Source of the DNA: Streptomyces asoensis
Lineage (GTDB): Bacteria > Actinomycetota > Actinomycetes > Streptomycetales > Streptomycetaceae
Reading direction: 5' to 3'
NCBI RefSeq assembly: GCF_016860545.1
Contig: NZ_BNEB01000001.1
Location: 434,001-498,000, forward strand
Length of the DNA: 64,000 nucleotides
The translations under genes and the position numbers were made by a program. Shown here piece by piece: positions 25,237 through 55,619 of the stretch (within the stretch, counting starts at the first letter, position 1; every line of letters starts with the position of its first letter). The notes under the pieces are model-generated. The model was not told the DNA's origin and searched no databases. It saw nothing but the letters and a program-made list of their open reading frames with translations.

Positions 25237-26768
25237 TGGTGCTCTCCGCTCGCGATGGTCTCCAGGATCCGGGTCGTGGTGATCTCGGGCCCGTTGGCGA
25301 TCTGCGCCACCAGCCGGCGGTCGCGCAGCACTCCGATGGTGTGGCTGAGCCGGAGTACCTCCTCAAGCTCGGCCGCGATGTACAGCACGGACATGCCGTC
25401 CTCGGAGAGGGAGACGACGAGCTTCTGGATCTCCGCCTTGGCGCCGATGTCGATGCCGCGGGTCGGCTCGTCGAGGATCAGCAGCTTCGGCCGGGTGATC
25501 AGCCAGCGGGCCAGCAGCACCTTCTGCTGGTTGCCGCCGCTGAGCCGGCCCACCCGGGCCTCGGGGTCGGCGGGGCGGATGTCCAGCGCCTTGATGTACT
25601 TGGCGACGAGTTCGTCGCGCTGGGCGGCCGGGATCGGCCGGGTCCAGCCGCGGGAGGCCTGGAGGGCCAGAATGATGTTCTCCCGGACCGTCAGGTCGGG
25701 CACCAGGCCCTCGCTCTTGCGGTTCTCCGAGCAGAAGGCGACCCCGGCGTCGATCGCGTCGTTCGGGGCGCCCATCGACACCTGCTTGCCGCCGATGGCG
25801 ACCTTGCCGGCGTCCGGCTGATCGGCGCCGAAGAGCAGCCGGGCCAGTTCCGTACGGCCCGAGCCGAGCAGGCCGGCGAGCCCGATCACCTCGCCCTTCC
25901 TGATCTCCAGGTCGAACGGCGCGATGCCACCGGTCCTGCCGAGGCCGTCCGCGCTGAGCAGGGTCTCGCCCGCGCCGGAGTGCAGCTGGTGCTCGTGGAG
26001 CTCGTCGAGCTGGCCCATGGCCTTGCCGAGCATGAGCTGGACGAGACCGACCTGGTCGAGGTCGCCCACCAGGTGCTCCCCCACGAGGGTGCCGTTGCGC
26101 AGGACGGTCATCCGGTCGCAGACCTCGTAGATCTGGTCCAGGAAGTGCGAGACGAAGAGGATCGCCACGCCCTCGTCCTTGAGCCGGCGCATGAGGGCGA
26201 AGAGCTGGAGGACCTCGTCGCGGTCGAGGCTGGAGGTCGGCTCGTCGAGGATCAGCACCTTGGCGCCGGTCCGCTCGCCCTCGCCGCCGGTGCCCAACGA
26301 CCTGACGATCGCCACCAGTTGCTGCACGGCCAGCGGATACGAGGACAGCGGCGCGGTGACGTCGATGTCGAGCCCGAGGCGGTCCACCAGCTCCGCCGCC
26401 CGCCGGCGCAGCTCCTTCCACTGGATGCGGCCCGCACGGGTGGGCTCCCGCCCGATGAAGATGTTCTCCGCCACCGACAGGTTGGGGCAGAGGTTGACCT
26501 CCTGGTAGACGGTGCTGATGCCGGCCTGCTGGGCCTGCAACGGGCTGGCGATGCGCACGGGTTCGCCGTCCAGCGTGATCGTGCCGCCGTCGAGGGGGTG
26601 GACCCCCGTGAGCACCTTGATGAGCGTGGACTTGCCCGCGCCGTTCTCGCCCATCAGGGCGTGGATCTCGCCGGGGAAGAGCCGGAAGTCGACATCCGAC
26701 AGAGCCCGTACCCCCGGAAACTCCTTGACTATGCCCGTCATTTCCAGGACGGGCCGTGGCTCTGCCAT
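25233..26768 (-). CDS. ytfR: Sugar ABC transporter ATP-binding protein (YtfR-like, two NBDs)
   Basis: A 511-residue double-ABC ATPase of the RbsA/MglA/YtfR class that powers monosaccharide uptake. The first nucleotide-binding domain has Walker [10 protein letters not shown] (residues 40-48), and Walker B with [16 protein letters not shown]. The second, starting near 255, has the expected degenerate Walker A GLLGSGRTE and signature [15 protein letters not shown] followed by [14 protein letters not shown]. Start ATG 26768. It is second in the operon behind the binding-protein gene (95-nt gap) and overlaps ytfT. Confidence 0.92.
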   Translation of the reverse strand: MAEPRPVLEMTGIVKEFPGVRALSDVDFRLFPGEIHALMGENGAGKSTLIKVLTGVHPLDGGTITLDGEPVRIASPLQAQQAGISTVYQEVNLCPNLSVAENIFIGREPTRAGRIQWKELRRRAAELVDRLGLDIDVTAPLSSYPLAVQQLVAIVRSLGTGGEGERTGAKVLILDEPTSSLDRDEVLQLFALMRRLKDEGVAILFVSHFLDQIYEVCDRMTVLRNGTLVGEHLVGDLDQVGLVQLMLGKAMGQLDELHEHQLHSGAGETLLSADGLGRTGGIAPFDLEIRKGEVIGLAGLLGSGRTELARLLFGADQPDAGKVAIGGKQVSMGAPNDAIDAGVAFCSENRKSEGLVPDLTVRENIILALQASRGWTRPIPAAQRDELVAKYIKALDIRPADPEARVGRLSGGNQQKVLLARWLITRPKLLILDEPTRGIDIGAKAEIQKLVVSLSEDGMSVLYIAAELEEVLRLSHTIGVLRDRRLVAQIANGPEITTTRILETIASGEHQ

Positions 26769-26863
26769 GGCAGCGCTCCTCGTGAGATTCGTTCAGGCCC
26801 GCAGGGAGCCCCGGCGCCGACGGCTCGGCCGGCCGAGGGCTCCCTGCCGGTGGGTGCGGTCGG

Positions 26864-27871
26864 TCAGTACTTGCGGCTCGGGAGCGCGGCCGCGGCCTGG
26901 TCCTGCATGAAGTCGCCCTCCTTGGTCTTGATCCAGCGCTCGACCGACTCGCCGTTCTTGACCTTCTTCACGACGTCCATCAGCTGGGGGCCGAGCAGCG
27001 GGTTGCACTCGACGATGGCGTTGATCTTGCCCTCGGACATGGCGACGAAGCCGTCCTTCACGCCGTCGATCGAGACGATCAGGATGTCCTTGCCGGGCTT
27101 CTTGCCGGCCGCCTCGATGGACTGGATGGCGCCGATGGCCATGTCGTCGTTGTGGGCGAAGAGGACGTTGATGTCCGGGTTGGACTGGAGGAAGGCGGCC
27201 ATGACCTGCTTGCCGCCGGCGCGGGTGAAGTCACCGGTCTGGCTGACGACGACCTTCCAGTCGCTCGCGTGGTCGGCGTCCATGACCTCCTTGAAGCCCT
27301 TCGCGCGCTCGATCGCCGGGGCGGCACCGGTGGTGCCCTCCAACTGGGCGATCTTCACCGGGCCCTTGAGGCCGGCCTTCGCGATGACCTTCTCGAGGAT
27401 CTTGGCGGCGCGGCGGCCCTCGTCGGTGAAGTCGGAGCCGACCAGCGTGACGTACAGGGAGTCGTCGGAGGTCTCGACGGAGCGGTCGGTGAGGACCACC
27501 GGGATCTTCTTGGCCTTGGCCTCCTTCAGCACCGCGTCCCAGCCCGTGACGACCACCGGCGAGAAGGCGATGACGTCCACGCCCTGGGTGATGTAGCTGC
27601 GGATCGCCGAGATCTGGTTCTCCTGCTTCTGCTGCGCGTCGGAGAACTTGAGGTTGTAGCCCGCCGCCTTGGCCGCGTCCTTGACCGAGGTGGTGTTGGC
27701 GCTGCGCCAGCCGCTCTCCGAGCCGACCTGGGAGAAGCCGAGGGTGATCGCCTTGCCGCCGTCCCCGGAGGAGCCGCCGCCGGTGCTGTCGTCCTCCTTG
27801 GCACAGGCCGCCAGGCCGCCCGCCGCCGCCACGCCGACCGCCGCGGTGAGGAAGTTTCTTCTGCTGAGCAT
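26864..27871 (-). CDS. ytfQ: Sugar-binding lipoprotein of the YtfQ-like importer
   Basis: A 335-residue periplasmic-binding-protein-like receptor of the ribose/galactofuranose type 1 fold. The N-terminus MLSRRNFLTAAVGV carries a twin-arginine motif and ends in a lipobox with Cys23 (LAAC), so it should be exported folded by Tat and lipid-anchored. Ligand-fold landmarks: TLGFSQVGSESGWR, VDVIAFSPVVVTGWD, LFAHNDDMAIGAIQSIEAAG and DILIVSIDGVKDGF. YtfQ itself binds galactofuranose; the FSQ-GSESGWR start is typical of YtfQ-type proteins. ATG 27871 is preceded by an AGGAGAA ribosome-binding site. Confidence 0.88.
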   Translation of the reverse strand: MLSRRNFLTAAVGVAAAGGLAACAKEDDSTGGGSSGDGGKAITLGFSQVGSESGWRSANTTSVKDAAKAAGYNLKFSDAQQKQENQISAIRSYITQGVDVIAFSPVVVTGWDAVLKEAKAKKIPVVLTDRSVETSDDSLYVTLVGSDFTDEGRRAAKILEKVIAKAGLKGPVKIAQLEGTTGAAPAIERAKGFKEVMDADHASDWKVVVSQTGDFTRAGGKQVMAAFLQSNPDINVLFAHNDDMAIGAIQSIEAAGKKPGKDILIVSIDGVKDGFVAMSEGKINAIVECNPLLGPQLMDVVKKVKNGESVERWIKTKEGDFMQDQAAAALPSRKY

Positions 27872-28003
27872 GTTCTTCTCCTTTGAAGAGCCGGCCCGGG
27901 GACGGACCTGCTGGTACTCGGGGGACCGGCCGCACTGCGTCCAGCCTGTCGATCACTGTTCGGAATTTCGGTCATACGCCGGTCAGGGCGTCCGACCGGT
28001 CCG

Positions 28004-29050
28004 TCAGAGGGGCACGCCCTCCGGCTGAGCGGCGTGGGGGAAGGTGCTTGCGCGGACGACGAGTTGGGGCTCGATGGCGGTCCGGGACGAGGCGGTGGGC
28101 GGGCGGCCCTCGATCTGCTCCAGGAGCAGGGCGATGCCCCGCTTGCCCACCGCCGAGAAGTCCTGCCGCACGGTGGTGAGGGGAGGCGCGAAGAACTCCG
28201 CCTCCGGGATGTCGTCGAAGCCGACCACCGCGACGTCCTGCGGGGTGCGGACCCCCGCCTCCCGCAGGGCCCGCAACACCCCCAGCGCCATCTGGTCGTT
28301 GGCGACGAAGACCGCGGTCAGCCCCCGGCCCACCCAGCCGGCCAGTTCCTGGCCCGCGCGGTAGCCCGACAGCGGACTCCAGTCCCCCCGCAGCAGCAGG
28401 GGCGGTTCGATGCCCGCCGCCTCCAGGGCCGCCCGCCAGCCGGCGGTCCGGTCGACCGCCTCCTGCCAGTCCTCGGGCCCTGCGAGGTGCCAGACGTTGC
28501 GGTGGCCGGCGGCCAGCAGATGACCGGTCGCCAGCCGTGCTCCGAGGTGCTGGTCCACACCGACACCGGGAGTGTCCATGGTGGATCCGCCGCCCACGAC
28601 CACCACCGGGAAGGGATGGCGCAGTTCGGCCAGGGCGTCCACCGCCGACCGCTGCGGGGCGATGGCGACGACCCCCTCCACCCCGCCGTCACTGAGGTGG
28701 TCCAGCGCCTGCGAGAGCTTCTCCATGGTCAGTTCGCGCAGACTGACCGTCGAGACCAGGTACCCCTCGGCGCGGGCGGCCTCCTCCAGCGCGAACAACG
28801 TGCTGGCCGGTCCGTAGAGGGTCGTGTCGGAGGCGACCACGCCCAGCGTCCGGGTGCGCCGGGTCGCCAGGGCCCGTGCGGAGGAGTTGCGGCGGTAGCC
28901 CATCTCCTCGATGGCGCGCAGGACCCTGTCCCGGGTCGCGTCGCGCACGTTGGGGTGGTCGCCCAGCACCCGGGAGACCGTCTGGTGCGAGACGCCGGCC
29001 TGGCGGGCCACGTCGGCCATGGTGGGCGGTCGGAGCTGAATGTGTGTCAC
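28004..29050 (-). CDS. LacI-family repressor of the sugar importer operon
   Basis: A 348-residue regulator. The HTH and hinge read TMADVARQAGVSHQTVSRVL and GYRRNSSARALATRRT; the sensor domain has FVANDQMALGVLRALREAGV and VVGFDDIPEAEFF, the standard type 1 binding fold. GTG 29050 is chosen because a near-perfect GGAGG lies 7 nt upstream; longer readings add unconserved sequence. It is the first gene of the same-strand run lacI-ytfQ-ytfR-ytfT-yjfF with a 132-nt gap before ytfQ and a lac-type operator upstream of itself, so it probably represses the whole operon, with sugar as inducer. Confidence 0.92.
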   Translation of the reverse strand: MTHIQLRPPTMADVARQAGVSHQTVSRVLGDHPNVRDATRDRVLRAIEEMGYRRNSSARALATRRTRTLGVVASDTTLYGPASTLFALEEAARAEGYLVSTVSLRELTMEKLSQALDHLSDGGVEGVVAIAPQRSAVDALAELRHPFPVVVVGGGSTMDTPGVGVDQHLGARLATGHLLAAGHRNVWHLAGPEDWQEAVDRTAGWRAALEAAGIEPPLLLRGDWSPLSGYRAGQELAGWVGRGLTAVFVANDQMALGVLRALREAGVRTPQDVAVVGFDDIPEAEFFAPPLTTVRQDFSAVGKRGIALLLEQIEGRPPTASSRTAIEPQLVVRASTFPHAAQPEGVPL

Positions 29051-29540
29051 GGCCGCACCTCCTTGGCGCTCGGCTGCCGGTAAGTCGTCGGACGCGGGCG
29101 GGCGGTCCCGCTCCGCCGGCTTCACCCCGAAGTCCCGGGGGCGCCGAACTCACGGACCCAAGGCCCCAGTTGGGACGCAACGGACACGACTCTCGTACCT
29201 CCCCCGTTTCGGAGCGGTCACCGACCGGTGAACGCGGAGGTCATTGTGAGCGCTAACAATTCACGGCGGTCAAGAGGGCTGCACGGGAAGGTCGTCACGG
29301 TTCCATAACGCGATTTCCCCCGACGGCACATCGTCCCTGGTCAGGGCCCTGACAAGGGTGCGGGGCAGGAACCCGGCCGCGACGGCCCCACGGAGGCCCG
29401 CGCGGCCCGGATCCGGCGAACTCGCGTCCACGGCGCCGGACATGCGCGATCGACGGACGTTCGACACACCGCCCTGGACGGACGTCCAGCCGGGCCGGCG
29501 CCCACTCGCCGGCGCATCCGGCCGGCCGCCCGCGTCTGCG
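29051..29540. other. Non-coding gap upstream of the lacI gene
   Basis: The 490-nt gap contains the lacI promoter/operator (29243-29273) and about 190 nt of leader before the lacI GTG. I see no credible gene; the part beyond 29280 shows nothing I recognise. Confidence 0.6.
29243..29273 (-). promoter_or_regulatory. lacI promoter overlapping a symmetric lac-type operator
   Basis: On the minus strand TTGACC (29268-29273) and CACAAT (29243-29248) are 19 bp apart. The plus-strand 18-mer ATTGTGAGCGCTAACAAT (29243-29260) differs at a single base from the ideal symmetric E. coli lac operator and covers the -10 and spacer, fitting autorepression. Confidence 0.82.
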
Positions 29541-30680: not shown

Positions 30681-30710
30681 TTGACACTCGGCTCGCACGG
30701 TCCTTACTGT
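30681..30710 (+). promoter_or_regulatory. Promoter of the sugar-acid dehydratase operon
   Basis: TTGACA (30681-30686) and TACTGT (30705-30710) are separated by 18 bp. Transcription should start near 30717, inside the downstream operator pair. Confidence 0.7.
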
Positions 30711-30712
30711 CT

Positions 30713-30747
30713 GCCCAGCATTTCGAACATGTGACGAAATCTCGAAC
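30713..30747 (+). promoter_or_regulatory. Tandem 16-bp operator pair before the dehydratase gene
   Basis: Two 16-bp elements ending in CGAAC lie 19 nt apart: GCCCAGCATTTCGAAC (30713-30728) and TGACGAAATCTCGAAC (30732-30747). The first begins 3 nt after the -10 box. The same spacing and motif occur at the arabinanase, arabinofuranosidase and iclR genes. A further TTTCGAAA (30633-30640) lies upstream. Confidence 0.65.
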
Positions 30748-30765: not shown

Positions 30766-31926
30766 GTGCGCATCACCGGAATCAGCACGCACGTGGTCGG
30801 GACGCCGTGGCGCAACCTGACCTACGTCCTGGTGCACACCGACGAGGGCATCACGGGTGTCGGAGAGACCCGCATGCTGGGTCACACCGACGCGCTGATC
30901 GGCTATCTGAAGGAGGCGGAGGCCAACCACATTCTCGGCTCCGACCCGTTCGCTGTCGAGGATCTGGTCAAGCGGATGAAGTACGGCGACTACGGGCGGG
31001 CCGGCGAGATCGTGATGTCGGGCATCGCCGTCGTCGAGATGGCCTGCTGGGACATCAAGGGCAAGGCCCTCGGCGTGCCCGTCTGGCAGCTCCTCGGCGG
31101 CAAGGTCACCGACAAGGTCAAGGCCTACGCCAACGGCTGGTACACCACCGAGCGCACCCCGGAGGCGTACCACAAGGCCGCCCAGGGCGTCATGGAGCGC
31201 GGCTACAAGGCGCTCAAGATCGACCCCTTCGGCACCGGGCACTTCGAGCTGGACCACCAGCAGACCCTCTACGCCGTCTCCCTCATCGAGGCGGTGCGCG
31301 ACGCCATCGGGCCGGACGCCGAACTGATGCTGGAGATGCACGGCCGCTTCTCCCCCGCCACCGCCGTGCGACTGGCCAACGAGCTCGCGCCCTTCAAGCC
31401 CGCCTGGCTCGAGGAGCCCTGCCCGCCGGAGAACCTGAAGGCGCTGGAGAAGGTCGCCGCCAAGGTGGACATCCCGGTCGCCACGGGTGAGCGCATCCAC
31501 GACCGCATCGAGTTCCGCGAGCTCTTCGAGAGCCAGGCCGTGGACATCATCCAGCCGGACGTCGGTCACATCGGCGGCATCTGGGAGACGCGCAAGCTGG
31601 CCGCGACCGCCGAGACGCACTACGTGCTCGTCGCCCCGCACAACGTCGGCGGCCCGGTCCTCACCGCGGCCTCGCTCCAGGTAGGGTTCACCTCCCCGAA
31701 CTTCAAGATCCTCGAGCACTTCAACGACTTCGCCGACGCGGAGATCAAGAAGGTCGTCAAGGGCGCGCCCGAGGTGATCGACGGCTACTTCCACCTCTCC
31801 GACAAGCCCGGTCTGGGTGTCGAGCTCGATGTCGACGCCGCGGCCGAGTTCCCGCAGCAGCAGGCGCGCTTCGACCTGTGGGCCGAGGGCTGGGAGCAGC
31901 GCAAGCCGAAGGGCAGCACCAAGTGA
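30766..31926 (+). CDS. Mandelate racemase/muconate lactonizing-type acid-sugar dehydratase
   Basis: A 386-residue enolase-superfamily enzyme. Metal ligands are the Glu residues in ELMLEMHGRFS, AWLEEPCPP and VATGERIHDR. The catalytic His pair is HGR (in EMHGRFS) and the APHNVGGP His, the set seen in D-galactonate dehydratase (DgoD) and related acid-sugar dehydratases rather than racemases; the C-terminal DKPGLGVELD matches DgoD too. Predicted reaction: an aldonate to a 2-keto-3-deoxy-aldonate; the sugar is unknown, but the operator pair links it to arabinan genes. GTG 30766 start. It overlaps the next gene by 4 nt (GTGA). Confidence 0.87.
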   Translation: MRITGISTHVVGTPWRNLTYVLVHTDEGITGVGETRMLGHTDALIGYLKEAEANHILGSDPFAVEDLVKRMKYGDYGRAGEIVMSGIAVVEMACWDIKGKALGVPVWQLLGGKVTDKVKAYANGWYTTERTPEAYHKAAQGVMERGYKALKIDPFGTGHFELDHQQTLYAVSLIEAVRDAIGPDAELMLEMHGRFSPATAVRLANELAPFKPAWLEEPCPPENLKALEKVAAKVDIPVATGERIHDRIEFRELFESQAVDIIQPDVGHIGGIWETRKLAATAETHYVLVAPHNVGGPVLTAASLQVGFTSPNFKILEHFNDFADAEIKKVVKGAPEVIDGYFHLSDKPGLGVELDVDAAAEFPQQQARFDLWAEGWEQRKPKGSTK

Positions 31927-32927
31927 GCACAGCCGTCGTCGTCGAGGCGCCCGGGGAGCACCGGCTCGTCGCGCACGAGCCGCGGCGCCCGGAGCCCGGC
32001 GAGGCGCTGGTACGCGTCCACGCCACCGGCATCTGCGGCAGCGACCGCGAGGTGTACCAGGGCAACCGGCCCGAGGGGTACGTCCGTTACCCGCTGACCC
32101 CGGGCCACGAGTGGTCCGGGACGGTCGAGGCGGTCGGCGCCGGGGTCCCCTCGTCGCTCGTCGGCCGCAAGGTCGTCGGGGAGGGGTTCCGCAACTGCCA
32201 GGTCTGCGACCGCTGCCACGCGGGCGAGACGACCCTGTGCACGGACGGGTACGAGGAGACCGGCTTCACCCAGCCGGGGGCCATGGCGTCCACCCTCACC
32301 CTGCCGGCCCGGCTGCTGCACGTCCTGGCGGACGACGCCGACCTCACGGCGGCGGCCCTGCTCGAACCCGCCGCCTGCATCGCGGCCGCCGCGATCAAGG
32401 GGCGGGCGCTGCCCGGCGAGAAGGTGGCCGTCGTCGGCACCGGCACGCTGGGGATGTTCGCCGTCCAGTTCCTCAAGGCGGGTTCCCCGGCCGAACTGCT
32501 GGTCGTCGGGACGCGCCGGGACCGGGAGGGCCTCTCCCGGCAGTTCGGCGCCTCGGACTTCCGGACCCGGGACGAGGAACTGCCGGACGACTTCGACGTC
32601 GTCATCGAGACCGCGGGATCGGCGTCCGCCGCGCGTACCGCGGCGTCGCTGCTCAGGCGCGGCGGACGGCTGGTGCTGACGGGGATCCCGGCGGCCGGCG
32701 CCGACGGGCTCGACCCGACGGACCTGGTCGTACGGCAGCTGGAGGTGCACACCGTCTTCGGCGCTCCCCCGGACGCCTGGTCGCACACCGTCCGGGTGTT
32801 CGGCGCCGGACTGCTGGACCCGCTGCCGCTGGTCACGCACGAGCTGCCGCTCGCCGAGTTCTCCGAGGCGATCGAGCTGGTGGGGTCCGGCGACCCGAAG
32901 GTGGGCAAGGTGCTGCTCAAGCCGTAG
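31923..32927 (+). CDS. Zinc-dependent alcohol/sugar dehydrogenase
   Basis: A 334-residue medium-chain dehydrogenase. The catalytic zinc site uses Cys in ATGICGSDREVY and the His-Glu of LTPGHEWSG; the structural-zinc loop is present as NCQVCDRCHAGETTLC with four Cys. The Rossmann nucleotide site is VAVVGTGTLGMFAVQ. It probably oxidises a sugar, polyol or keto-deoxy sugar acid in the pathway begun by the upstream dehydratase, to which it is coupled by a GTGA overlap. A perfect 17-bp hairpin follows and seems to end this two-gene unit. Confidence 0.9.
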   Translation: MSTAVVVEAPGEHRLVAHEPRRPEPGEALVRVHATGICGSDREVYQGNRPEGYVRYPLTPGHEWSGTVEAVGAGVPSSLVGRKVVGEGFRNCQVCDRCHAGETTLCTDGYEETGFTQPGAMASTLTLPARLLHVLADDADLTAAALLEPAACIAAAAIKGRALPGEKVAVVGTGTLGMFAVQFLKAGSPAELLVVGTRRDREGLSRQFGASDFRTRDEELPDDFDVVIETAGSASAARTAASLLRRGGRLVLTGIPAAGADGLDPTDLVVRQLEVHTVFGAPPDAWSHTVRVFGAGLLDPLPLVTHELPLAEFSEAIELVGSGDPKVGKVLLKP

Positions 32928-32997: not shown

Positions 32998-33032
32998 GAC
33001 CTGAGCCGCGAACCTTGACCGACATATCGAAC
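32998..33032 (+). promoter_or_regulatory. Weaker tandem CGAAC pair before the U32-like gene
   Basis: GACCTGAGCCGCGAAC (32998-33013) and GACCGACATATCGAAC (33017-33032) again end in CGAAC 19 nt apart, but the left arms match the palindrome poorly. I see no convincing -35/-10 in the expected place, so this is a tentative member of the set. Confidence 0.35.
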
Positions 33033-33046
33033 ACGAAGGACGGCAT

Positions 33047-34018
33047 GTGACCACCGACGCTTCCGCCACGGCAGCCCGTCGACCCGCTGAGCAGGCGCTC
33101 ACCGCGCTCGGACTGGGCGCGCCCGCGCTCGACCCCGCCGACACCTCCTCCCACTCCTTCCCGGGTGGCGGCCGCTGGCGCACCGAGGTCCCTTCGTGCG
33201 AGGGCCCCGAAGCGCTGGCCGTCATCCTCAAGGAGGCCTCGCGCCTCGACGTGCCGATCCACCGGATCAGCCAGGGCAGCGGCGTGTGGATGCTGACCGA
33301 CGCCGAGATCACCGAGATGGTCGACGCCACCGGGGAACGGGACATCGAGCTCTGCCTCTTCACGGGGCCGCGCGGCACCTGGGACATCGGCGGCTCGACC
33401 CGTACCGACTCCAAGGGCGGCGGGCTGCGCGCCCGGGGGCACGACGCCGTGGCCGGATGTGTCGAGGACGCGGTCCGGGCGACGGAGCTGGGCGTCAAGT
33501 GCCTGCTCGTCGCCGACGAGGGCGTGCTGTGGACGCTGCACCGGGCCCGGCTGGCCGGCATCATCCCGGCCGACACGACGCTGAAGGTGTCGGCGCTCAT
33601 CGGCCCGGTCAACCCGGCCGCGTACGCGGTGTACGAGCGGCTCGGCGCCGACTCCGTCAACGTGCCCAGCGACCTGACGCTCGATCACCTCACGGAGATC
33701 CGGCGGGTGTCGGGCGCTCCCATGGACATGTACATCGAGGCCCCCGACGATCTCGGCGGCTACATCCGGATGTACGAGGTGGCCGAGCTGATCCGGCGCG
33801 GTTCACCGCTCTATCTGAAGTTCGGCCTGTCCAAGGCCCCGGGGATCTACCCCTACGGCCACCACATGCGGGACCTGACGCTCTCCACCGCACGGGAGCG
33901 GGTGCGCCGCGGACGGCTCGCCCTCGACCTCCTCGCGCGGCACGGGGCCGACGGGGACATGGCCCCCCTGGGCTCGCGTCTGCCGGGTGAACTGAACCGA
34001 TTCGGCATTCAGTCATAA
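33047..34018 (+). CDS. U32-peptidase-like TIM-barrel protein of unknown function
   Basis: A 323-residue protein. The sequence [58 protein letters not shown] and [18 protein letters not shown] gives an alternating beta/alpha pattern like peptidase family U32 or related barrels, though the U32 zinc-cysteine cluster is absent. Closely similar proteins are, as I recall, always found with sugar ABC importers in Streptomyces, so a catabolic (aldolase- or isomerase-like) role is plausible but unproven. GTG 33047 has GAAGGA 6 nt upstream. It precedes the binding-protein gene by 142 nt. Confidence 0.65.
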
Positions 34019-34160
34019 CGTTCCGGAAACTTGCTTCACAGAAGCCGACACAGGCGCGCAGAATCCCACACATCTTCTCTCGGTCATCCCGGCACCACGT
34101 CCGGGAACGCCCTTCGCACCGCGAGACCGATCCCTGCACACCACATCAAGGATGATGAAC

Positions 34161-35267
34161 ATGCGTAACCGCAGAGCCGCCCTCGCCGCCATAGCCGGAG
34201 CCGCTTCCCTCGCCCTGACCCTGAGCGCCTGCGGGCAGTCCGGTGAGGGCGGCAGCAAGGACGACTCGGGCGACTCCAAGGGCGGGACGATCGGCATCGC
34301 GATGCCGACGAAGTCCTCCGAGCGTTGGATCACCGACGGTGCCAACGTCGAGAAGGACCTCAAGGCCAAGGGCTACAAGACCAAGCTGGTCTTCGGCGAG
34401 GACGACCCCGACCAGCAGGTCTCGCAGATCGAGAACCTGATCACCCAGGGCGTCAAGGCCCTGATCATCGCGGCCATCGACAACAAGTCGCTGAACAACG
34501 TCCTCCAGCAGGCCGCCGACGCCAAGATCCCGGTCATCTCCTACGACCGCCTGATCCTCGGCACGAAGAACGTCGACTACTACGCGTCCTTCGACAACGA
34601 GAAGGTCGGCAAGCTCCAGGCCGGCTACCTCGTCGAAAAGCTGGGCCTGGCGTCCGGCAAGGGCCCCTTCAACATCGAGCTGTTCGCCGGCTCCAACGAC
34701 GACAACAACACCAAGTACTTCTTCAACGGCGCGATGAGCGTGCTCCAGCCGTACATCGACAGCAAGAAGCTCGTGGTCAAGTCCGGCCAGACCAAGATGA
34801 CCCAGGTCACCACCCTGCGCTGGGACGGCGCCACCGCCCAGAAGCGCATGGAGGACATCCTCACCTCGTCGTACAAGAGCGGCCGGGTCGACGCGGTCCT
34901 CTCGCCCTACGACGGCATCTCCATCGGCATCATCGCCGCGCTGAAGTCCGACGGCTACGGCTCCGCCGCCAAGCCCCTGCCGGTCATCAGCGGCCAGGAC
35001 GCCGAGCTGGCCTCCGTGAAGTCGATCATCGCCGGCCAGCAGTCGATGACCGTCTACAAGGACCTGCGCAAGCTCGCCCAGGTCGCCACGGACATGGTCG
35101 ACGCCACCCTGAACGGCAAGAAGCCCGAGATCAACGACACCAAGTCGTACGACAACGGCACCAAGGTCGTCCCCGCCTACCTGCTCCAGCCGGTGAGCGT
35201 CGACAAGACGAACTACGAGAAGGAACTGGTCCAGGGCGGCTACTACACGGCTGACCAGCTCAAGTAA
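34161..35267 (+). CDS. chvE: ChvE-type multiple-monosaccharide-binding lipoprotein
   Basis: A 368-residue sugar receptor of the ChvE/XylF class. The signal peptide ends in a lipobox with Cys (LTLSACGQ), so it is membrane-anchored outside. Ligand-fold landmarks: [52 protein letters not shown], and [15 protein letters not shown]. ChvE relatives bind arabinose, galactose, glucose or xylose. I chose ATG 34161 because AAGGA is 8 nt upstream; ATG codons at 34152 and 34155 overlap that ribosome-binding site. First gene of the three-gene importer chvE-mmsA-mmsB. Confidence 0.9.
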
Positions 35268-35299
35268 GCGTCGACCCACACGGATTGGAAGGCACGACC

Positions 35300-36850
35300 A
35301 TGGCGGGACCCGTCCTGGAAATGCGCTCGATCGTCAAGACCTTTCCCGGCGTAAAAGCGCTGTCGGACGTCACGCTGACTGTCCGTCAGGGCGAGGTCCA
35401 TGCCATCTGCGGTGAGAACGGCGCCGGGAAGTCCACCTTGATGAAGGTGCTCTCCGGCGTCCATCCGCACGGAACCTACGGCGGCGACATCCTCTTCGAG
35501 GAAGAGGTCGTCCAGTTCAAGGACATCCGGGCGAGCGAGCAGCACGGCATCGTCATCATCCACCAGGAACTGGCGCTGTCGCCGTACCTCTCCCTCGCGG
35601 AGAACATCTTCCTCGGCAACGAACACGCCAAGGGCGGGTTCATCGACTGGCGGGAGACCCTGCGGCACGCGACGGAACTGCTGCGCCGGGTCGGTCTCGA
35701 CGACCACCCGGAGACCCGCGTCGCCGACATCGGCGTGGGCAAGCAGCAGCTCGTGGAGATCGCGAAGGCACTGTCGAAGAAGGTGAAGCTGCTCATCCTG
35801 GATGAGCCGACGGCGGCCCTGAACGACGAGGACAGCGGCAAACTCCTGGATCTGATCCTGGAGTTGAAGAAGCAGGGCATCACCTCGATCATCATCTCCC
35901 ACAAGCTCAACGAGATCCGCAAGGTCGCGGACTCGGTGACGATCATCCGCGACGGGCACTCCATCGAGACGCTCGACGTGAAGGCCGCGGAGACGACCGA
36001 GGACCGGATCATCAGCGGCATGGTCGGGCGCGACCTCGACCACCGCTTCCCCGAGCGCACCCCGCACGAGGCGCAGGAGGGCGCGGCCCCGGCCCTGGAG
36101 ATCCGCGACTGGACGGTGCACCACCCGATCGACCAGCAGCGCAAGGTGGTCGACGACGTGTCGATCCAGGTGCGCCGCGGGGAGATCGTCGGCATCGCGG
36201 GCCTCATGGGCGCGGGCCGCACCGAACTGGCCATGAGCGTCTTCGGGCGCAGCTACGGCCGGCACGCGGGCGGCACGGTCCTCAAGGACGGCAAGGAGAT
36301 CCGCACGAAGACGGTCGCCGAGGCCATCGGGCACGGGATCGCCTACGTCACCGAGGACCGCAAGCACTACGGCCTCAACCTCATCGACACGATCAACCGC
36401 AACATCTCGCTGACGGCCCTCGCCAAGGTCGCCAAGCGGGGTGTGGTCGACGAGCACGAGGAGCGGCAGGTCTCCGAGGGCTACCGCAAGTCCATGAACA
36501 TCAAGGCGCCCACCGTCTTCGAGCCCGTGGGCAAGCTGTCCGGCGGCAACCAGCAGAAGGTCGTCCTCAGCAAGTGGATCTTCGCGGGTCCCGACGTGCT
36601 GATCCTGGACGAGCCCACGCGCGGTATCGACGTCGGCGCCAAGTTCGAGATCTACACGGTCATCGACCAGCTGGCCGCCCAGGGCAAGGCGGTCGTCTTC
36701 ATCTCCTCCGAACTGCCCGAACTGCTCGGCATGTGCGACCGCATCTACACGATGGCCGCCGGACGGCTCACGGGCGAGTTCCCGCGGGCCGAGGCCACGC
36801 AGGAAGTGCTGATGCGTCAGATGACGAAGGACAAAGAGGTATCGCGATGA
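35300..36850 (+). CDS. mmsA: Multiple-monosaccharide ABC transporter ATP-binding protein (MmsA/GguA)
   Basis: A 516-residue double-ABC ATPase. First domain: Walker [10 protein letters not shown] (residues 38-46) and Walker [14 protein letters not shown]. Second domain from about residue 260: degenerate Walker [10 protein letters not shown], signature [15 protein letters not shown] and [13 protein letters not shown]. The loop [18 protein letters not shown] and the [15 protein letters not shown] segment are typical of the GguA/XylG branch. ATG 35300 has GGAAGG 7 nt upstream. It ends in an ATGA overlap with the permease gene. Confidence 0.92.
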
Positions 36851-38094
36851 GCACGGACGTGACCGACAAGAGCCCGGCGGCGGCACCGCCCGGGAAGAGC
36901 GGGGGCTCTGCCACCGGCGGCGGGCTGCTGCGCCTGGTGCTGGACGGACTGCGGCGCAACATGCGCCAGTACGGCATGCTGATCGCGCTCGGCCTGCTCG
37001 TGGTCCTGTTCCAGGTGTGGACCGGCGGTGACCTGCTGCTCCCCCGCAACGTCTCCAACCTGGTCCTTCAGAACAGCTACATCCTGATCCTCGCGATCGG
37101 CATGATGCTGGTGATCATCGCGGGTCACATCGACCTGTCGGTCGGTTCGGTGACGGCGTTCACGGGCGCCTTCGCGGCCGTCCTCACGGTGCAGCACGAC
37201 GTGGCGTGGCCCGTCGCGCTGGTGCTGTGCCTGGTCGTGGGCGCGGTGGCCGGCGCGGTACAGGGCTTCCTGATCGCCTATCTCGGCATACCCTCCTTCA
37301 TCGTCACCCTCGCGGGCATGCTGCTCTTCCGCGGTCTGACGGAGATCCTCCTGGAGGGCCAGACCCTCGGCCCGTTCCCCGACGGTCTCCAGAAGATGGG
37401 CAACGGCTTCCTGCCGGAGGTCGGCCCGCACACGAACTACCACAACATCACGCTGCTGCTGGGCTTCGCCCTGCTCGCGTTCGTCGTCCTCCAGGAGGTC
37501 CGCGACCGCAAGCGTCAGCAGGAGTTCTCGCTCGACGTGGTGCCGACGAACCTCTTCCTGCTCAAGCTCGTCGCCATCGCCGCCGCGGTGCTCACGGTCA
37601 CGATGCTCCTCGCCAGCTACAAGGGCGCGCCGATCATCCTGATCATCCTCGGCGCGCTGGTCGTCGGCTACGGCTACATCATGCGCAACGCCGTCTTCGG
37701 CCGTCACATCTACGCCATCGGCGGCAACCTGCCGGCGGCGAAGCTGTCCGGCGTGAAGGACAAGAAGGTCACCTTCCTCGTCTTCCTGAACATGGGCGCG
37801 CTCGCGGCCCTGGCGGGTCTGGTGGTCGCGGCCCGGCTGAACGCGGCCTCGCCGAAGGCGGGCCTCAGCTTCGAACTGGAGGCGATCGCCTCGTCGTTCA
37901 TCGGCGGCGCGTCCATGAGCGGCGGTGTCGGCACCGTGCTCGGCGCCATCATCGGTGGTCTCGTCCTCGGTGTGCTGAACAACGGCATGAACCTGCTGAG
38001 CGTCGGCACCGACTGGCAGCAGGTCATCAAGGGCCTCGCCCTGCTGATCGCGGTCGGGTTCGACGTGTGGAACAAGCGCAAGTCAGGTTCCTGA
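36847..38094 (+). CDS. mmsB: Multiple-monosaccharide ABC transporter permease (MmsB/GguB)
   Basis: A 415-residue permease, the long form typical of GguB/XylH with about ten hydrophobic helices. Landmarks: [40 protein letters not shown], an extended periplasmic loop after residue 170 ([15 protein letters not shown]), [20 protein letters not shown] and [19 protein letters not shown]. The protein pairs with itself rather than with a second permease, in contrast to the YtfT/YjfF system in this window. It overlaps mmsA by 4 nt and is followed by a strong terminator. Confidence 0.92.
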
Positions 38095-41252: not shown

Positions 41253-42269
41253 TCAGTGGGCGACCGGCCAGCCGCTGCTCCAGTCCAGGAGGTTGATCCC
41301 CAGCTTGGGGGTGCCGTTGTCGTTGCCGTCGTAGTAGTGGTAGACGATCAGGTCCCCGTCGGTGTCGTGCAGGATCGACTGCCCGCCGGGCCCGATGACG
41401 CTGCCGTGCGACTCCAGCACCGGGGTGCCGCCGTTGTTCGTCAGGGCGACACCGCTCCTGTCGTAGTACGGCCCGGTGACGGAGGCCGCCCGGCCGACCT
41501 TGACCTTGTAGGTGGAGCCGGTGCCCGCACAGCAGGTGTCGTAGGAGGCGAAGAGGTAGTAGTAGCTGCCGTGCCTGACCACGTAGGGCGCCTCGACGGC
41601 CTTGGTCCCGGTGGGGCGGGCGGCGAGCGAGCGCCGGGCGGTGTCGGAGGCGAGCTGTTTGCCGGTCGACGGGTCGAGCCGGATCATCTTGATCCCCGTC
41701 CACCAACTCCCGAACGACAGCCACCACTTGCCGTCGCCGTCCACGAAGAGGTTCGGGTCGATGGCGTTGTAGTCGCTGGACGTGGACGAGGTGTAGACGG
41801 TGCCGTAGTCGGTCCAGGAGCCGGGCAGGCCGGTGCTCGAACCGGCCAGTCCTATGGCGGACTTGTTGGACCCGAAGGTGGAGACGGCGTAGTACATCAG
41901 GTACTTGCCGCCCTGGTACGAGATGTCGGGCGCCCAGGCCTCCGTGGCGCCGTAGGCGGACCACCAGGCCGGCCGGGTGGAGAAGGCGTCCGCGCCCGCG
42001 CCGAACGCGACGCGGTCGGTGGAGGTGCGGTAGGAGAGACCGCCGCCGGTGGCGTAGAGGAGGTAGCGGCCGGCCGGCGTGCGGATCATCGTCGGGTCGT
42101 GCACGACCGTGGCGCCGGTGACCCTGCCGGGGTCGGGATACGCGGAGGCGGTGGAGGGGACCAGGGCGAGCAGGACCGCCGCCGGGATCGAGAGCAGGGC
42201 GGCCCCGCGGGACCGGCGGGGCGTGCGGGGGACGGGTGGGGTGCGGGGGACGGGTGGGGTGCGGCTCAT
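41253..42269 (-). CDS. Secreted arabinan endo-1,5-alpha-L-arabinosidase (GH43)
   Basis: A 338-residue five-bladed beta-propeller glycosidase that cuts the alpha-1,5-arabinan backbone of plant pectin. The GH43 acidic residues are visible: Asp in VVHDPTMIRTP (base), Asp in AIDPNLFVDGDG (pKa modulator) and Glu in KAVEAPYVVRHG (acid). The N-terminus has two RTPPVP repeats, basic residues, then a hydrophobic signal peptide (SIPAAVLLALVPSTASA), so it is exported. ATG 42269 has AAGGAG 7 nt upstream. Its promoter and tandem operators are shared with the intracellular arabinofuranosidase gene 7.6 kb away, which would finish the degradation. Confidence 0.92.
   Translation of the reverse strand: MSRTPPVPRTPPVPRTPRRSRGAALLSIPAAVLLALVPSTASAYPDPGRVTGATVVHDPTMIRTPAGRYLLYATGGGLSYRTSTDRVAFGAGADAFSTRPAWWSAYGATEAWAPDISYQGGKYLMYYAVSTFGSNKSAIGLAGSSTGLPGSWTDYGTVYTSSTSSDYNAIDPNLFVDGDGKWWLSFGSWWTGIKMIRLDPSTGKQLASDTARRSLAARPTGTKAVEAPYVVRHGSYYYLFASYDTCCAGTGSTYKVKVGRAASVTGPYYDRSGVALTNNGGTPVLESHGSVIGPGGQSILHDTDGDLIVYHYYDGNDNGTPKLGINLLDWSSGWPVAH
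42223..42264. repeat. 18-bp tandem repeat in the arabinanase leader
   Basis: GTGCGGGGGACGGGTGGG occurs at 42223-42240 and 42241-42258, with a partial GTGCGG copy to 42264. On the coding (minus) strand it encodes RTPPVP twice, just after the start codon and before the signal-peptide core. Confidence 0.85.
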
Positions 42270-42302: not shown

Positions 42303-42369
42303 GTTCGTGATTCCGAACGGCAGTCGCGTCGTCGGACGGGACCGTAGGATCGAACCCCTTGCGCGTCAA
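42303..42369 (-). promoter_or_regulatory. Arabinanase promoter with tandem operators
   Basis: On the minus strand TTGACG (42364-42369) and TACGGT (42341-42346) have a 17-bp spacer. Downstream lies GTTCGTGATTCCGAAC (42303-42318), a palindrome with 5-bp arms, and a degenerate copy at 42322-42337 (right arm CGGAC), 19 nt apart. The arrangement is superimposable on that of the arabinofuranosidase gene. Confidence 0.75.
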
Positions 42370-48365: not shown

Positions 48366-49877
48366 CTACGCCAGCCTGATCACGTTCCACGACAGCGGCT
48401 CCAGCGTCGCCGTCAGCCCGCCGTCCGTCAGTGCCGTGCCCCGCGCCGCGTGCGGGGTGACCCGCTCGGGCTCGGCCAGGGTGTTGCGGGCGTCCGGGTC
48501 GGCGTCCGCCAGCACGCTGTGTTCGACGACCGAGGTCAGGCCGAGGCCGGTCAGGGCGACGTGCAGGGGCAGCGCCCCGGTACGGCTGCGGTTGACGGCG
48601 AACACGGTGACCGAGCCGTCGTCGGCGCGCACCGCGGTGGCGTGCAGCAGGTCCGCCTCGCCGTACCGGGCCGTCTCGTACGTCGGTGAGTCCACGCGCA
48701 CGTCGAGGACCGTGCCGCGCCCGTGCTTCGACGCCTGCGCGAACGGGAAGAACGTCGTCTGCCGCCAGGCCGGACCGCCCGGCTCGGTGAGGATGGGCGC
48801 GATGACGTTGACGAGCTGGGCGAGACAGGCGACCGTCACCCGGTCCGCGTGCCGCAGCAGCGCGATGAGGAGCGAGCCGAAGACGACGGCGTCCATGACG
48901 CTGTAGTTGTCCTCCAGCAGGCGGGGGGCCTCGGCCCAGTCCCGCGTGGCGGAGTCCTCGATCGCGTGCCACCCCGACATGTACCAGACGTTCCACTCGT
49001 CGAAGGAGAGGTTGATCTTCTTCTTCGACTTGAGCTTCGCGCCGACGTGGTCGCAGGTGGCGACGACGTTCTCGATGAACGACTCCATGTCCACGGCCGA
49101 GGCCAGGAAGGAGTCGACGTCGCCGTCCTGCGGCTCGTAGTAGGCGTGCAGGGAGATGTAGTCGACCAGTTCGTACGTCTCCGCGAGGACCGTCGCCTCC
49201 CACTCGGCGAAGGTCGGCATGGACTGGCTGGACGAGCCGCAGGCGACCAGTTCCACGGACGGGTCCATCTGGCGCATGGCGCGAGCGGTCTCGGCGGCGA
49301 GCCGGCCGTACTCCCCGGCGGTCTTGTGGCCGGTCTGCCAGGGGCCGTCCATCTCGTTGCCCAGGCACCAGACCCTGATGCCGAAGGGGTCCTTGTCCCC
49401 GTGGTCGGCCCGCAGGTCCGAAAGGGCCGTGCCGGACGGGTGGTTGGCGTACTCCTGGAGCTCCAGGGCCTCGGCGACGCCCCGGGTGCCGAGGTTGATC
49501 GCCATCATCGGCTCGGCCTGCGGGCCGATCTTGCGCAGGAAGGCGATGTACTCGGAGAGACCGAAACGGTTGGTCTCCGTCGAGCGCCAGGCCAGGTCCA
49601 GGCGGCGCGGACGGTCCTCGGCGGGGCCGACCGAGTCCTCCCACTTGTAACCCGAGACGAAGTTGCCGCCCGGGTAGCGGACGGCGGTGACGCCGAGTTC
49701 GCGGACCAGGTCCAGGACGTCGGTCCGCAGCCCCGCCTCGTCGGCGGACGGGTGGCCGGGCTCGTACAGACCGGTGTAGACGCACCGGCCCAGATGCTCC
49801 ACGAAGCTGCCGAAGAGACGGGGGTTGACTTCGCCGATGGTGAAGGCGGGGTCGAGGGTGAGACGTGCGGTGCGCAT
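48366..49877 (-). CDS. abfA: Intracellular alpha-L-arabinofuranosidase (GH51)
   Basis: A 503-residue GH51 enzyme that releases terminal L-arabinofuranose from arabino-oligosaccharides. The TIM barrel carries the acid/base Glu175 in WCLGNEMDGPW and the nucleophile Glu294 in LSFDEWNVWYM; the N-terminal ITIGEVNPRLFGSFVEHLG-like segment and the YPGGNFVSGYKWEDSVGP motif are characteristic, and a C-terminal beta-sandwich ends the protein. No signal peptide, so it works on imported fragments. ATG 49877. It shares its promoter layout and tandem operators with the secreted arabinanase gene, so the two are probably co-induced. Confidence 0.95.
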   Translation of the reverse strand: MRTARLTLDPAFTIGEVNPRLFGSFVEHLGRCVYTGLYEPGHPSADEAGLRTDVLDLVRELGVTAVRYPGGNFVSGYKWEDSVGPAEDRPRRLDLAWRSTETNRFGLSEYIAFLRKIGPQAEPMMAINLGTRGVAEALELQEYANHPSGTALSDLRADHGDKDPFGIRVWCLGNEMDGPWQTGHKTAGEYGRLAAETARAMRQMDPSVELVACGSSSQSMPTFAEWEATVLAETYELVDYISLHAYYEPQDGDVDSFLASAVDMESFIENVVATCDHVGAKLKSKKKINLSFDEWNVWYMSGWHAIEDSATRDWAEAPRLLEDNYSVMDAVVFGSLLIALLRHADRVTVACLAQLVNVIAPILTEPGGPAWRQTTFFPFAQASKHGRGTVLDVRVDSPTYETARYGEADLLHATAVRADDGSVTVFAVNRSRTGALPLHVALTGLGLTSVVEHSVLADADPDARNTLAEPERVTPHAARGTALTDGGLTATLEPLSWNVIRLA

Positions 49878-49983
49878 GAACGCCTTTCGAGGAGGGGGAA
49901 CCTGTCCGTCGGGGGGCGGGAGTCGGGAGTGGGGGGCGGGGAGGCACGGGGCCGGCGGGTCGTCCGTGCACTGTCGTCACGGG

Positions 49984-50050
49984 GTTCGACATTTCGAATT
50001 GCGCTCGTAACTTCGAACGGGACCGTAAAATCGATGTGCCCGCCCGTCAA
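49984..50050 (-). promoter_or_regulatory. abfA promoter with two tandem operators
   Basis: On the minus strand TTGACG (50045-50050) and TACGGT (50022-50027) have a 17-bp spacer. Two 16-bp elements follow downstream: GCTCGTAACTTCGAAC (50003-50018), 4 nt past the -10 box, and GTTCGACATTTCGAAT (49984-49999), 19 nt further. Binding there would block transcription start and elongation. Confidence 0.78.
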
Positions 50051-53825: not shown

Positions 53826-54686
53826 TCAGCCTTCGAAGGCCGGCTGGGGCAGGCCCTTGCCCGCTCCCGGTATCACCAGCAGTGAGCCCGCCAGCGGGTG
53901 CGGCGAGGCCAGGCCCACCCGGGCGGTGGTGATGTACAGGTCGGTCAGGTCGGCGCCGCCGAACGCGCAGGCCGTGACCCTGGGGACGGGCAGCCGCACG
54001 ACCAGGTCCAGTTCACCGGCCGGGGTGTAGCGGCGTACCGCTCCCCCGTCCCAGAGCGCCACCCACACACAGCCGTCCGCGTCGACGGTGAGGCCGTCGG
54101 GGAAGCCGGCGCCGTCCTCGATCGTGACGAAGGGGCGGCGGCCGCTCACCCGCCCGTCGGGCGCGTGGTCGAGGACGTCGATCCGGCGGGTCGGCGAGTC
54201 GATGTAGTACATCAGCGTGCCGTCCGGGCTCCAGCCCGTCCCGTTGCTGACCGCGACGTCGTCGAGGACCACCTCGCAGCCGCCGTCGGCGGTGAGACGG
54301 GAGAGGGTGCCGCCGCCCGGCGCCTCGTCGTAGCGCATGGTGCCGGCCCACAGGGAGCCGTCGGGGGCGACGGCTGCGTCGTTGGCGCGGCGGCCGGGCA
54401 CCGGCTCGTGGCGCAGCCAGCGGAAGCCGCCGTCCGGGTCGAGCAGTCCGACGCCGTCCCGCAGATTGAGCACCAGACCGCCCCCGGCGCGGGGCTTGGC
54501 CGCGCCGACGTGCTGGTGGGTCGTGCGCACCGTACGGCGGCCGGTCGACGGCTCGTAGCCGTGCAGGCGGGAGCCGAGGATGTCGAGCCAGAGCAGGCGG
54601 CCGGCGGCCGGGTCCCAGGTCGGTCCCTCGCCGAGGACCGCCTCGGCCCGCACCGCCACCTCGTGGACCGTGCCGGGCGCCGTCAC
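53826..54686 (-). CDS. SMP-30/gluconolactonase-type sugar lactonase
   Basis: A 286-residue six-bladed beta-propeller. The divalent-metal ligands are in GEGPTWD (Glu), RRANDAAVAPDG (Asn), VSNGTGWSPDG (Asn) and GFPDGLTVDADG (Asp), the standard SMP-30 set. Enzymes of this family open aldonolactones, e.g. glucono-, arabino- or xylonolactone. GTG 54686 overlaps the iclR stop (GTGA); longer readings would extend inside iclR. With the IclR regulator it forms a two-gene operon, and the shared operators suggest a lactone from arabinose or a related sugar. Confidence 0.9.
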   Translation of the reverse strand: MTAPGTVHEVAVRAEAVLGEGPTWDPAAGRLLWLDILGSRLHGYEPSTGRRTVRTTHQHVGAAKPRAGGGLVLNLRDGVGLLDPDGGFRWLRHEPVPGRRANDAAVAPDGSLWAGTMRYDEAPGGGTLSRLTADGGCEVVLDDVAVSNGTGWSPDGTLMYYIDSPTRRIDVLDHAPDGRVSGRRPFVTIEDGAGFPDGLTVDADGCVWVALWDGGAVRRYTPAGELDLVVRLPVPRVTACAFGGADLTDLYITTARVGLASPHPLAGSLLVIPGAGKGLPQPAFEG

Positions 54687-55456
54687 GACACGCTCCGGTA
54701 GCCCAGGAGTTCGGACAGCTCGGCGGCGCCCTTCGCGGCGAGCTGCTCCAGTTCGGCGCGGCGCTCGTCGCTCCACCGGATCATCGGCACGGAGATGGAC
54801 AGCGCGGCGACGACCTGTCCCGTGCGGTCGCGCACCGGAGCCGCGACACAGCTGACGTCCGGGTTGGACTCACGGCTCTCGACCGCGACGCCCCGCTCCC
54901 GGATCTCCGCCAGCGCCTCGCGCAGGGCGCCGGGCTCGGTGATGCTGTTCGGGGTCATCCGGACCAGGTCCGCGTCGTCGGGGATGCGCGCGTCGAGCTC
55001 CGGCTCGGAGAGCGAGGCCAGCAGCATCTTGCCGACGGAGGTGCAGTGGGCCGGCAGCCGGCGGCCGGCGGCCGAGACCATCCGGACGGCGTGCGTGGAG
55101 TCGACCTTGGCGATGTAGATGACGTCGGTGCCCTCGAGGATCGCCACGTGGACCGTCTCGTCACACGTCTCGGCGACGGAGCGCGCGACCTGCTGACCCT
55201 CGGCGGCGAGGTCGAGCTGCTCGGCGTAGCGGCTCCCGAGCTGGTACGGACGCACACCGAGGCGGTACCGTCCGGGTTGTCCCGGAACGCCGACGATGTA
55301 CGACCGCGCCGAGAGCGTGGTCACCAGCTCGTGCACGGTGGTACGCGGAAGCTGCAGCTTGCGCACGATGTCGGGGGCGGAGAGCGAACCGTCCCCGTCG
55401 AGGAAGAGCTCGAGGATGTCGAGTGCTCGGGTCACAGCAGGTACGAGGCGTCCCAC
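54683..55456 (-). CDS. IclR-family transcriptional regulator
   Basis: A 257-residue regulator. The N-terminal winged helix reads VTRALDILELFLDGDGSLSA and IVRKLQLPRTTVHELVTTLS; the GAF-like effector domain contains VHVAILEGTDVIYIAKVDST, LPAHCTSVGKMLLASLSEPE, and the C-terminal VSCVAAPVRDRTGQVVAALSIS signature with Cys. IclR proteins in sugar-acid loci respond to keto-deoxy acids or lactones. GTG 55456 start. Its upstream region (55496-55530) has the same tandem operators as the arabinan genes, making it the best candidate regulator for that set. Confidence 0.92.
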   Translation of the reverse strand: MGRLVPAVTRALDILELFLDGDGSLSAPDIVRKLQLPRTTVHELVTTLSARSYIVGVPGQPGRYRLGVRPYQLGSRYAEQLDLAAEGQQVARSVAETCDETVHVAILEGTDVIYIAKVDSTHAVRMVSAAGRRLPAHCTSVGKMLLASLSEPELDARIPDDADLVRMTPNSITEPGALREALAEIRERGVAVESRESNPDVSCVAAPVRDRTGQVVAALSISVPMIRWSDERRAELEQLAAKGAAELSELLGYRSVS

Positions 55457-55495: not shown

Positions 55496-55530
55496 GTTCG
55501 AGATTTCAACAGGCGATCGGCATGACGAAC
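55496..55530 (-). promoter_or_regulatory. Tandem operator pair upstream of iclR
   Basis: Elements GTTCGAGATTTCAACA (55496-55511) and GATCGGCATGACGAAC (55515-55530) lie 19 nt apart. The first shares the 12-mer GTTCGAGATTTC (reverse strand) with the second operator of the dehydratase gene. TTGAAA on the minus strand, inside the first element, may be the -35. Confidence 0.6.
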
Positions 55531-55619
55531 ACAGGCTGTCATACGGCGTTGCGCCGGGCAATGGTCGGGAAACGCACAGTGGCCCGAAGAGGGGCGCCCG
55601 GTGGGCCAGGATGGTAGGC

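Follow-up and report, generated by a model that had tools for sequence, protein, structure and literature searches.

Tandem operators at a 19-bp pitch mark L-arabinose promoters in Streptomyces and are most likely docking sites of one IclR-type repressor

The DNA considered here is a stretch of 64,000 nucleotides from Streptomyces asoensis (contig NZ_BNEB01000001.1, positions 434,001 to 498,000 of the forward strand), called the window below and numbered from its first letter. In Streptomyces, genes for the release, import and breakdown of L-arabinose have promoters marked by pairs of 16-bp dyads spaced 19 bp apart, and one IclR-type repressor, whose gene lies in the same region, most likely docks on these pairs. 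The window contains six such pairs, all at an exact 19-bp pitch, ahead of abfA (a GH51 arabinofuranosidase gene), a GH43 arabinanase gene, a sugar-acid dehydratase operon, a conserved gene of unknown family that starts at 33047 (called 33047 here), an operon for a YtfQ-type ATP-binding cassette (ABC) importer, and the gene of an IclR-family regulator (iclR). The first three had been described in an earlier, sequence-only reading. The operator-pair observation is real and larger than first reported, since a scan allowing mismatches, followed by a small matrix, brought out three additional pairs (27939-27973, 32998-33032 and 55496-55530). The proposal in that reading of a dedicated arabinan/arabinose regulon is supported by genome-wide, cross-species and co-occurrence tests.

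Architecture of the tandem operators

The operator of abfA occupies 49984-50018 on the minus strand and consists of GTTCGAAGTTACGAGC, a 3-nt linker (GCA) and ATTCGAAATGTCGAAC, reading from 50018 to 49984; the start-to-start pitch of 19 bp and the 3-nt linker are shared by all window pairs. It is preceded by the promoter TTGACG-17-TACGGT (50022-50050, minus strand; TTGACG at 50045-50050, TACGGT at 50022-50027), which leaves 3 nt to the pair, and the distance from operator to abfA is 106 nt. Reading 49984-50050 thus confirms the two 16-bp elements, 19 nt apart just past the −10 box, that had been claimed there. The claim of the same geometry at the arabinanase gene (42303-42369) also holds: a TTGACG-17-TACGGT promoter (42341-42369, minus strand) is followed after 3 nt by a pair at 42303-42337, which is recovered in a pair scan with a published consensus. 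The same scan finds the dehydratase operator at 30713-30747 on the plus strand. Here the boxes TTGACA (30681-30686) and TACTGT (30705-30710) and the 19-bp pitch are as described, but the promoter (30681-30710) has a spacer of 18 bp rather than 17 and a gap of 2 nt after the −10 box, and the left arms of both dyads are degenerate. These three genes had been called unlinked; they are indeed on separate transcripts, but lie within 20 kb of each other, and it is the genome-wide sites that are truly scattered. The putative autoregulatory operator of iclR (55496-55530, minus strand), found by pair scan and conserved in relatives, follows a TTGCCC-17-CAGCCT promoter (55533-55561, minus strand), whose second box is TAGCCT in most relatives examined.

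The ideal 16-bp dyad is GTTCGANATNTCGAAC, which matches the published IclR motif subgroup NGTYCRAW4TYGRACN. A scan of the window with this published subgroup consensus, a test independent of any training on the pairs, returns at pitch 19 exactly the same six pairs at or above a threshold of 23/32, and 0-2 pairs at every one of the other pitches between 16 and 30. In 60 dinucleotide shuffles of the window, pitch-19 pairs number 0.12 on average and 2 at most. The pairs at 32998 and 42303 each include a weak dyad, scoring 9 and 10 of 16, respectively. Across 11 pairs the invariant positions (G1, C4, C12, G13, G24, A27, G32 and A34) fall mainly in the outer arms.

Placement relative to the promoter is also regular. 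Readable boxes are present in 12 of 14 own-genome promoters, and in all 12 the pair lies downstream of the −10 box; the first dyad begins 2-3 nt past it in 10 of the 14. In abfA-type promoters a weak additional dyad, 18 nt farther upstream (42340-42355 at the arabinanase gene), overlaps the −10 box; at that offset a score above 4 is reached in 8/23 abfA promoters and in none of 80 iclR, 19 GH43-CBM42 and 17 GH27 promoters, and no third operator dyad is claimed.

Distribution across the genome and the genus

A single-dyad search of the strain's own genome, allowing up to 2 mismatches, gives 42 places, against 6 for a reversed control pattern. Fifteen of the 42 were made into loci and checked for pairs, 11 of them outside the window, while the other 27 were not checked one by one. 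A 19-bp partner with a pair score above 24 is found at 5 of these 11 outside loci (L003-L007). Their genes, read only afterwards, encode GH127, GH54 and GH27 proteins and two proteins with a C-terminal AbfB domain (presumably the domain known as CBM42), one of them clearly GH43-like. Residues 41-652 of the GH27 protein match the whole chain of PDB 3a21 (1170 bits), which we take to be the S. avermitilis beta-L-arabinopyranosidase.

A sequence-only model built from these five pairs and the six of the window was then scanned over the genome, with 150 of 2530 first-look candidates scored, and yields 18 hits at E<=10, some places being counted on both strands. Distinct places with E<0.03 number 12, six in the window and six outside; every one of them stands before a gene suited to an arabinose set, and 11 of the 12 belong to the model's own training set. 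The many unrelated promoters that would have spoken against the sequence-only reading do not appear among these 12, and the genome-wide targets form an arabinose set. The model adds a site that precedes a GH43-CBM13 gene like 3akf (E 0.0018). It also adds one before a second GH51 gene, with CBM4_9, at E 0.21 but with a matrix score of 35.5 and the layout TTGACG-17-TATCTT-3 nt-pair. At C3:789611 (E 0.5) the layout TTGACA-17-TATTGT-2 nt-pair precedes a gene for an ABC binding protein, and this site is a possible member only. Locus L015 (score 22.5), whose neighbours include a further IclR gene and one for an aldehyde dehydrogenase, is left out as doubtful, and the single strong dyads at L002, L008, L009, L011, L013 and L014 are not counted as members because they have no partner dyad. 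The one at L002:1501-1516 (G000:C2:1056092) is a near-perfect lone dyad ∼85 nt before a GH10 xylanase open reading frame (ORF), perhaps the site of another regulator.

Conservation is most complete at iclR itself. In the window and the 80 nearest iclR loci (79 titled Streptomyces, one ‘Actinobacteria bacterium’), the pair stands ahead of the regulator gene in 81/81 sequences and the flanks vary: mean column agreement is 0.96 in the dyads, 0.69 in the upstream, promoter-containing part and 0.50 just downstream. Another pair, scoring above 24 and mostly of the abfA type, occurs within the fetched DNA of 71/80 loci. Across these 80 loci, which are orthologous and so not independent, a pitch of 19 is counted 151 times, 18 is counted 19 times, 37 is counted 17 times and other pitches 0-2 times. 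At arfA, the gene type to which abfA belongs, a pair lies within 300 nt in 22/60 cases (within 400 nt in 23/60), and 37 of the other 38 have one 0.3-4.4 kb upstream. The genes between operator and arfA are ABC importer genes in L016 (15122-18410), L018 and L059; for L030 the scan covered the binding protein only. The window strain, unlike L016, L018 and L059, has no importer genes between operator and abfA (49878-50018), and a search of its genome with a relative's binding protein, run without a positive control, gave no match at E<=1e-30.

The sequence-only reading had required that the elements be kept in orthologous promoters, and this is the case beyond iclR as well. With a matrix trained on the six window pairs only, the pair is recovered ahead of GH43-CBM42 genes in 19/20 relatives and GH27 genes in 17/20, and 0/1600 shuffles exceed the threshold; these 40 promoters are a non-random sample, mostly from the top of the lists (20 of the 35 GH43-CBM42 matches and 20 of the 27 GH27 matches in genomes other than the strain's own), and many model hits of the GH43-CBM42 group were known before its promoters were picked. 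The misses are G333 (GH43-CBM42 and GH27) and G303 and G301 (GH27), G303 having a weak pair of score 15.3 at pitch 19.

The sites also travel with iclR. In 121 same-genus genomes, with iclR called at E<=1e-90 and sites by model R1 at E<=0.02 (Infernal with stricter filters, 57 candidates scored per genome), iclR is present in 81 and sites in 72. Sites are found in 71/81 genomes with iclR and 1/40 without, and at least two sites in 53/81 and 1/40; the Fisher test (p 3.5e-21) overstates independence, since iclR, targets and sites follow clades and iclR's own operator is counted. In the ten iclR-plus genomes without model sites, the best pitch between 16 and 30 upstream of iclR is 19 in every case, with scores above 22 in eight and of 17.8 and 7.3 in the other two. 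The sole iclR-minus genome with sites, G388, is an assembly of 1420 contigs. Among the target genes, ArfA occurs in 65 iclR-plus and 3 iclR-minus genomes, arabinanase in 32 and 2, and GH43-CBM42 (32/32) and GH27 (24/24) only in iclR-plus genomes. The ArfA paralogues of G297 (57%) and G401 (60%), the only two examined, have no pair in the fetched regions. As a separate observation, G366 (L138) is a possible case of natural loss: iclR is absent, arfA is retained at 81% identity with an arabinanase gene nearby, and the 12 kb fetched contain no tandem pair.

The candidate repressor and its rivals

The product of iclR (54683-55456, minus strand) belongs to the IclR family, matching HTH_IclR (PF09339, 1e-12) and IclR_C (PF01614, 3.8e-48), both above cut-off. 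Two named families fall short of their cut-offs: the KdgR equivalog (NCBIfam NF011671), its second-best named NCBIfam family, scores 161.8 bits against a cut-off of 275, and the BhcR equivalog 165.9 against 350. Being encoded in the window and carrying its own operator copy, it is the clear candidate regulator, and very probably the pairs are the operators of this one autoregulated repressor, which L-arabinose or a sugar acid derived from it would release. Two IclR dimers (a tetramer) would bind the two 16-bp dyads side by side; a 19-bp pitch would suit binding along one face of the DNA by two dimers, or by a tetramer, as PMC8222616 states for the IclR family. With the first dyad so close behind the −10 box, the pair is expected to cover the predicted transcription start, where the bound protein would block RNA polymerase, and this position favours repression. 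When L-arabinose enters the cell, the sugar or its acid (perhaps L-arabinonate or 2-keto-3-deoxy-arabinonate) might free the repressor from DNA, a guess drawn from the target genes and an analogy with KdgR. Release would then induce, in concert, the enzymes that free arabinose, the importers, the oxidative route (dehydrogenase, lactonase and dehydratase) and the regulator itself.

It is unlikely, though worth weighing, that the binder is another IclR paralogue (GylR, for example, or the one at C2:177447) and that the window iclR is a mere neighbour. GTTCG/CGAAC arms are common to IclR paralogues and, in the passages of PMC9732521, the minimal operator of GylR, GGTCGGCATTGTCGAACA, is close. The arms of the GylR box are apparently 17 bp end to end, however, compared with 16 here, and it is the window iclR that is itself preceded by the pair in every sequence compared. 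In addition, the one paralogue tested, a different IclR gene, is present in 109/121 genomes, including 30 of the 40 that lack the window iclR, and 29 of those 30 have no sites. Some IclR-family proteins act as activators, and the window IclR could in principle bind the pairs and activate; this is quite improbable, given that the pair takes the repressor position downstream of the −10 box in every own-genome promoter with readable boxes.

A binder of the LacI or GntR type (BxlR-like, or the products of the LacI gene at 28004-29125 or the GntR-UTRA gene at 21059-21871) is still harder to credit. The LacI gene adjoins the YtfQ operon, and the BxlR-type motif CGAA-Nx-TTCG, given in passages of PMC12772271 that concern xylan, resembles the inner part of the ideal dyad; yet it is the inner letters that vary in the 11 pairs and the outer arms that are conserved, and tandem dyads at such spacing are a trait of the IclR family. 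Chance resemblance among GC-rich promoters would account for single degenerate elements, which are plentiful (513 in the window with up to 3 mismatches), but hardly for the fixed pitch, the nearly empty shuffles and the related promoters, and is the merest outside chance.

Several observations, in addition to the shared ancestry that inflates the Fisher test, weigh against regulation of all these genes by the window IclR. Cross-binding is possible, since related IclR proteins such as GylR recognise boxes of a similar kind. The GH54 and GH27 promoters have 7 and 11 nt between the −10 box and the pair, and the pairs of 33047 (32998-33032, plus strand) and the YtfQ operon (27939-27973, minus strand) have no clear −35/−10 boxes ahead of them. 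One weak genomic site, C5:714201 (E 0.46), has a PucR-type gene on one side and on the other a long ORF without annotation, and was left out as doubtful. Because GH43-CBM42 and GH27 are confined to iclR-plus genomes, they offer no negative-control promoters, and the only three iclR-minus genomes with ArfA are divided: G366 (81%) and G297 (57%) have no pair in the fetched stretches and G388 has one. In other genera and families, where the IclR is 50-60% identical, pairs near iclR or a 33047 homologue occur in 5 of 11 fetched regions (L125, L126, L129, L133 and L134; score above 17, best 28-35, no shuffle control) and none is found in the fetched regions L127, L128, L130, L131, L132 and L135. 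Model R1 finds sites in 1/28 distant genomes, 16 of which have an iclR-like gene.

The gene set, the arabinose route and known systems

The genes behind the window pairs fall into release, uptake and breakdown. abfA (48366-49877, minus strand) matches NCBIfam ArfA above cut-off, and the GH43 arabinanase (41253-42269, minus strand) has AbnA as its best NCBIfam match, below cut-off. Uptake would involve the YtfQ-type sugar importer (24115-27871, minus strand; binding protein at 26864-27871, ATPase and permease), whose YtfQ match is below cut-off, and a ChvE-type multiple-sugar importer (34152-38094, plus strand; binding protein, ATPase and permease; ChvE above cut-off), whose genes come after 33047. 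The LacI-family gene at 28004-29125 stands directly upstream of the YtfQ operon with the operator pair between both, and double control is possible. For breakdown, the operon at 30766 encodes an enolase-superfamily sugar-acid dehydratase (30766-31926, plus strand), near D-galactonate dehydratases and below cut-offs, and a zinc alcohol/sugar dehydrogenase (31878-32927, plus strand) recognised by Pfam and NCBIfam. Behind iclR lies an SMP-30/gluconolactonase-type lactonase (53826-54686, minus strand; start placed by comparison with relative L016, the longest ORF extending to 54776). Dehydrogenase, lactonase and dehydratase thus each stand behind an operator pair and, from sequence, are candidates for steps of an oxidative L-arabinose route.

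Protein 33047 (33047-34018, plus strand; 323 aa) is conserved, and no Pfam, NCBIfam or PDB relative was found for it by sequence. It has 62 invariant columns in 11 aligned sequences that are 42-88% identical to it, and of 13 regions fetched around iclR-like genes in other genera, 9 contain a homologue; an AlphaFold model from two sequences (pLDDT 41) is too poor for use. A tentative and rather doubtful extension is that a non-phosphorylating L-arabinose route of Streptomyces is marked in full by the regulon, and that in it 33047, which has its own operator pair, would be a new last enzyme replacing the usual 2-keto-3-deoxy-L-arabinonate dehydratase or aldolase, and its substrate would also be the repressor's effector. 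Elsewhere in other genera, further 19-bp pairs (score 25-32) occur away from iclR and 33047, at L125:10937, L126:7861 and L133:1025.

For a major group of soil decomposers, the system supplies a testable candidate regulator of the enzymes that release arabinose, a candidate design for arabinose-responsive promoters, and a list of co-regulated genes that, with one member of no known family, may complete an arabinose catabolic route. Arabinose regulators known as AraR are of the LacI and GntR types. Bifidobacterial and Bacteroides regulators resemble the present system in their local control of arabinose and arabino-oligosaccharide use (PMC5928203, PMC4666351); the passages concerned name no IclR type, and the regulator in PMC4666351 is of the NrtR family. 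KdgR shares the IclR family and differs in its motif, a different palindrome, and in its regulon, described in PMC8222616 passages as pectin and galacturonate use. GylR is closer: according to PMC9732521 this Streptomyces protein, also of the IclR family, represses an operon as well as its own gene, and its half-sites are related. The GylR regulon is defined by an 18-bp palindrome before glp genes, whereas the arabinose set and the paired 16-bp operator belong to the system described here.

In the open literature searched for IclR-type or other control of arabinose-related genes, the supplements of PMC8222616 aside, no description of this regulon was found; the string ‘arabin’ is absent from the main text of that paper, whose supplementary tables may list the regulon. 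The closest parallel is the set of IclR-family tandem regulons presented in its passages (Suvorova and Gelfand 2021), which have the same motif subgroup and the same tandem arrangement. Tandem palindromes 18-22 nt apart, centre to centre, are usual in the family, genes for sugars and sugar acids are reportedly common in subgroup NGTYCRAW4TYGRACN, and the distance here is 19 for the window pairs, for the sites elsewhere in the genome and for those of relatives. Such spacing of paired dyads is therefore an IclR trait already known, of which the arabinose regulon of Streptomyces is an apparently undescribed instance.
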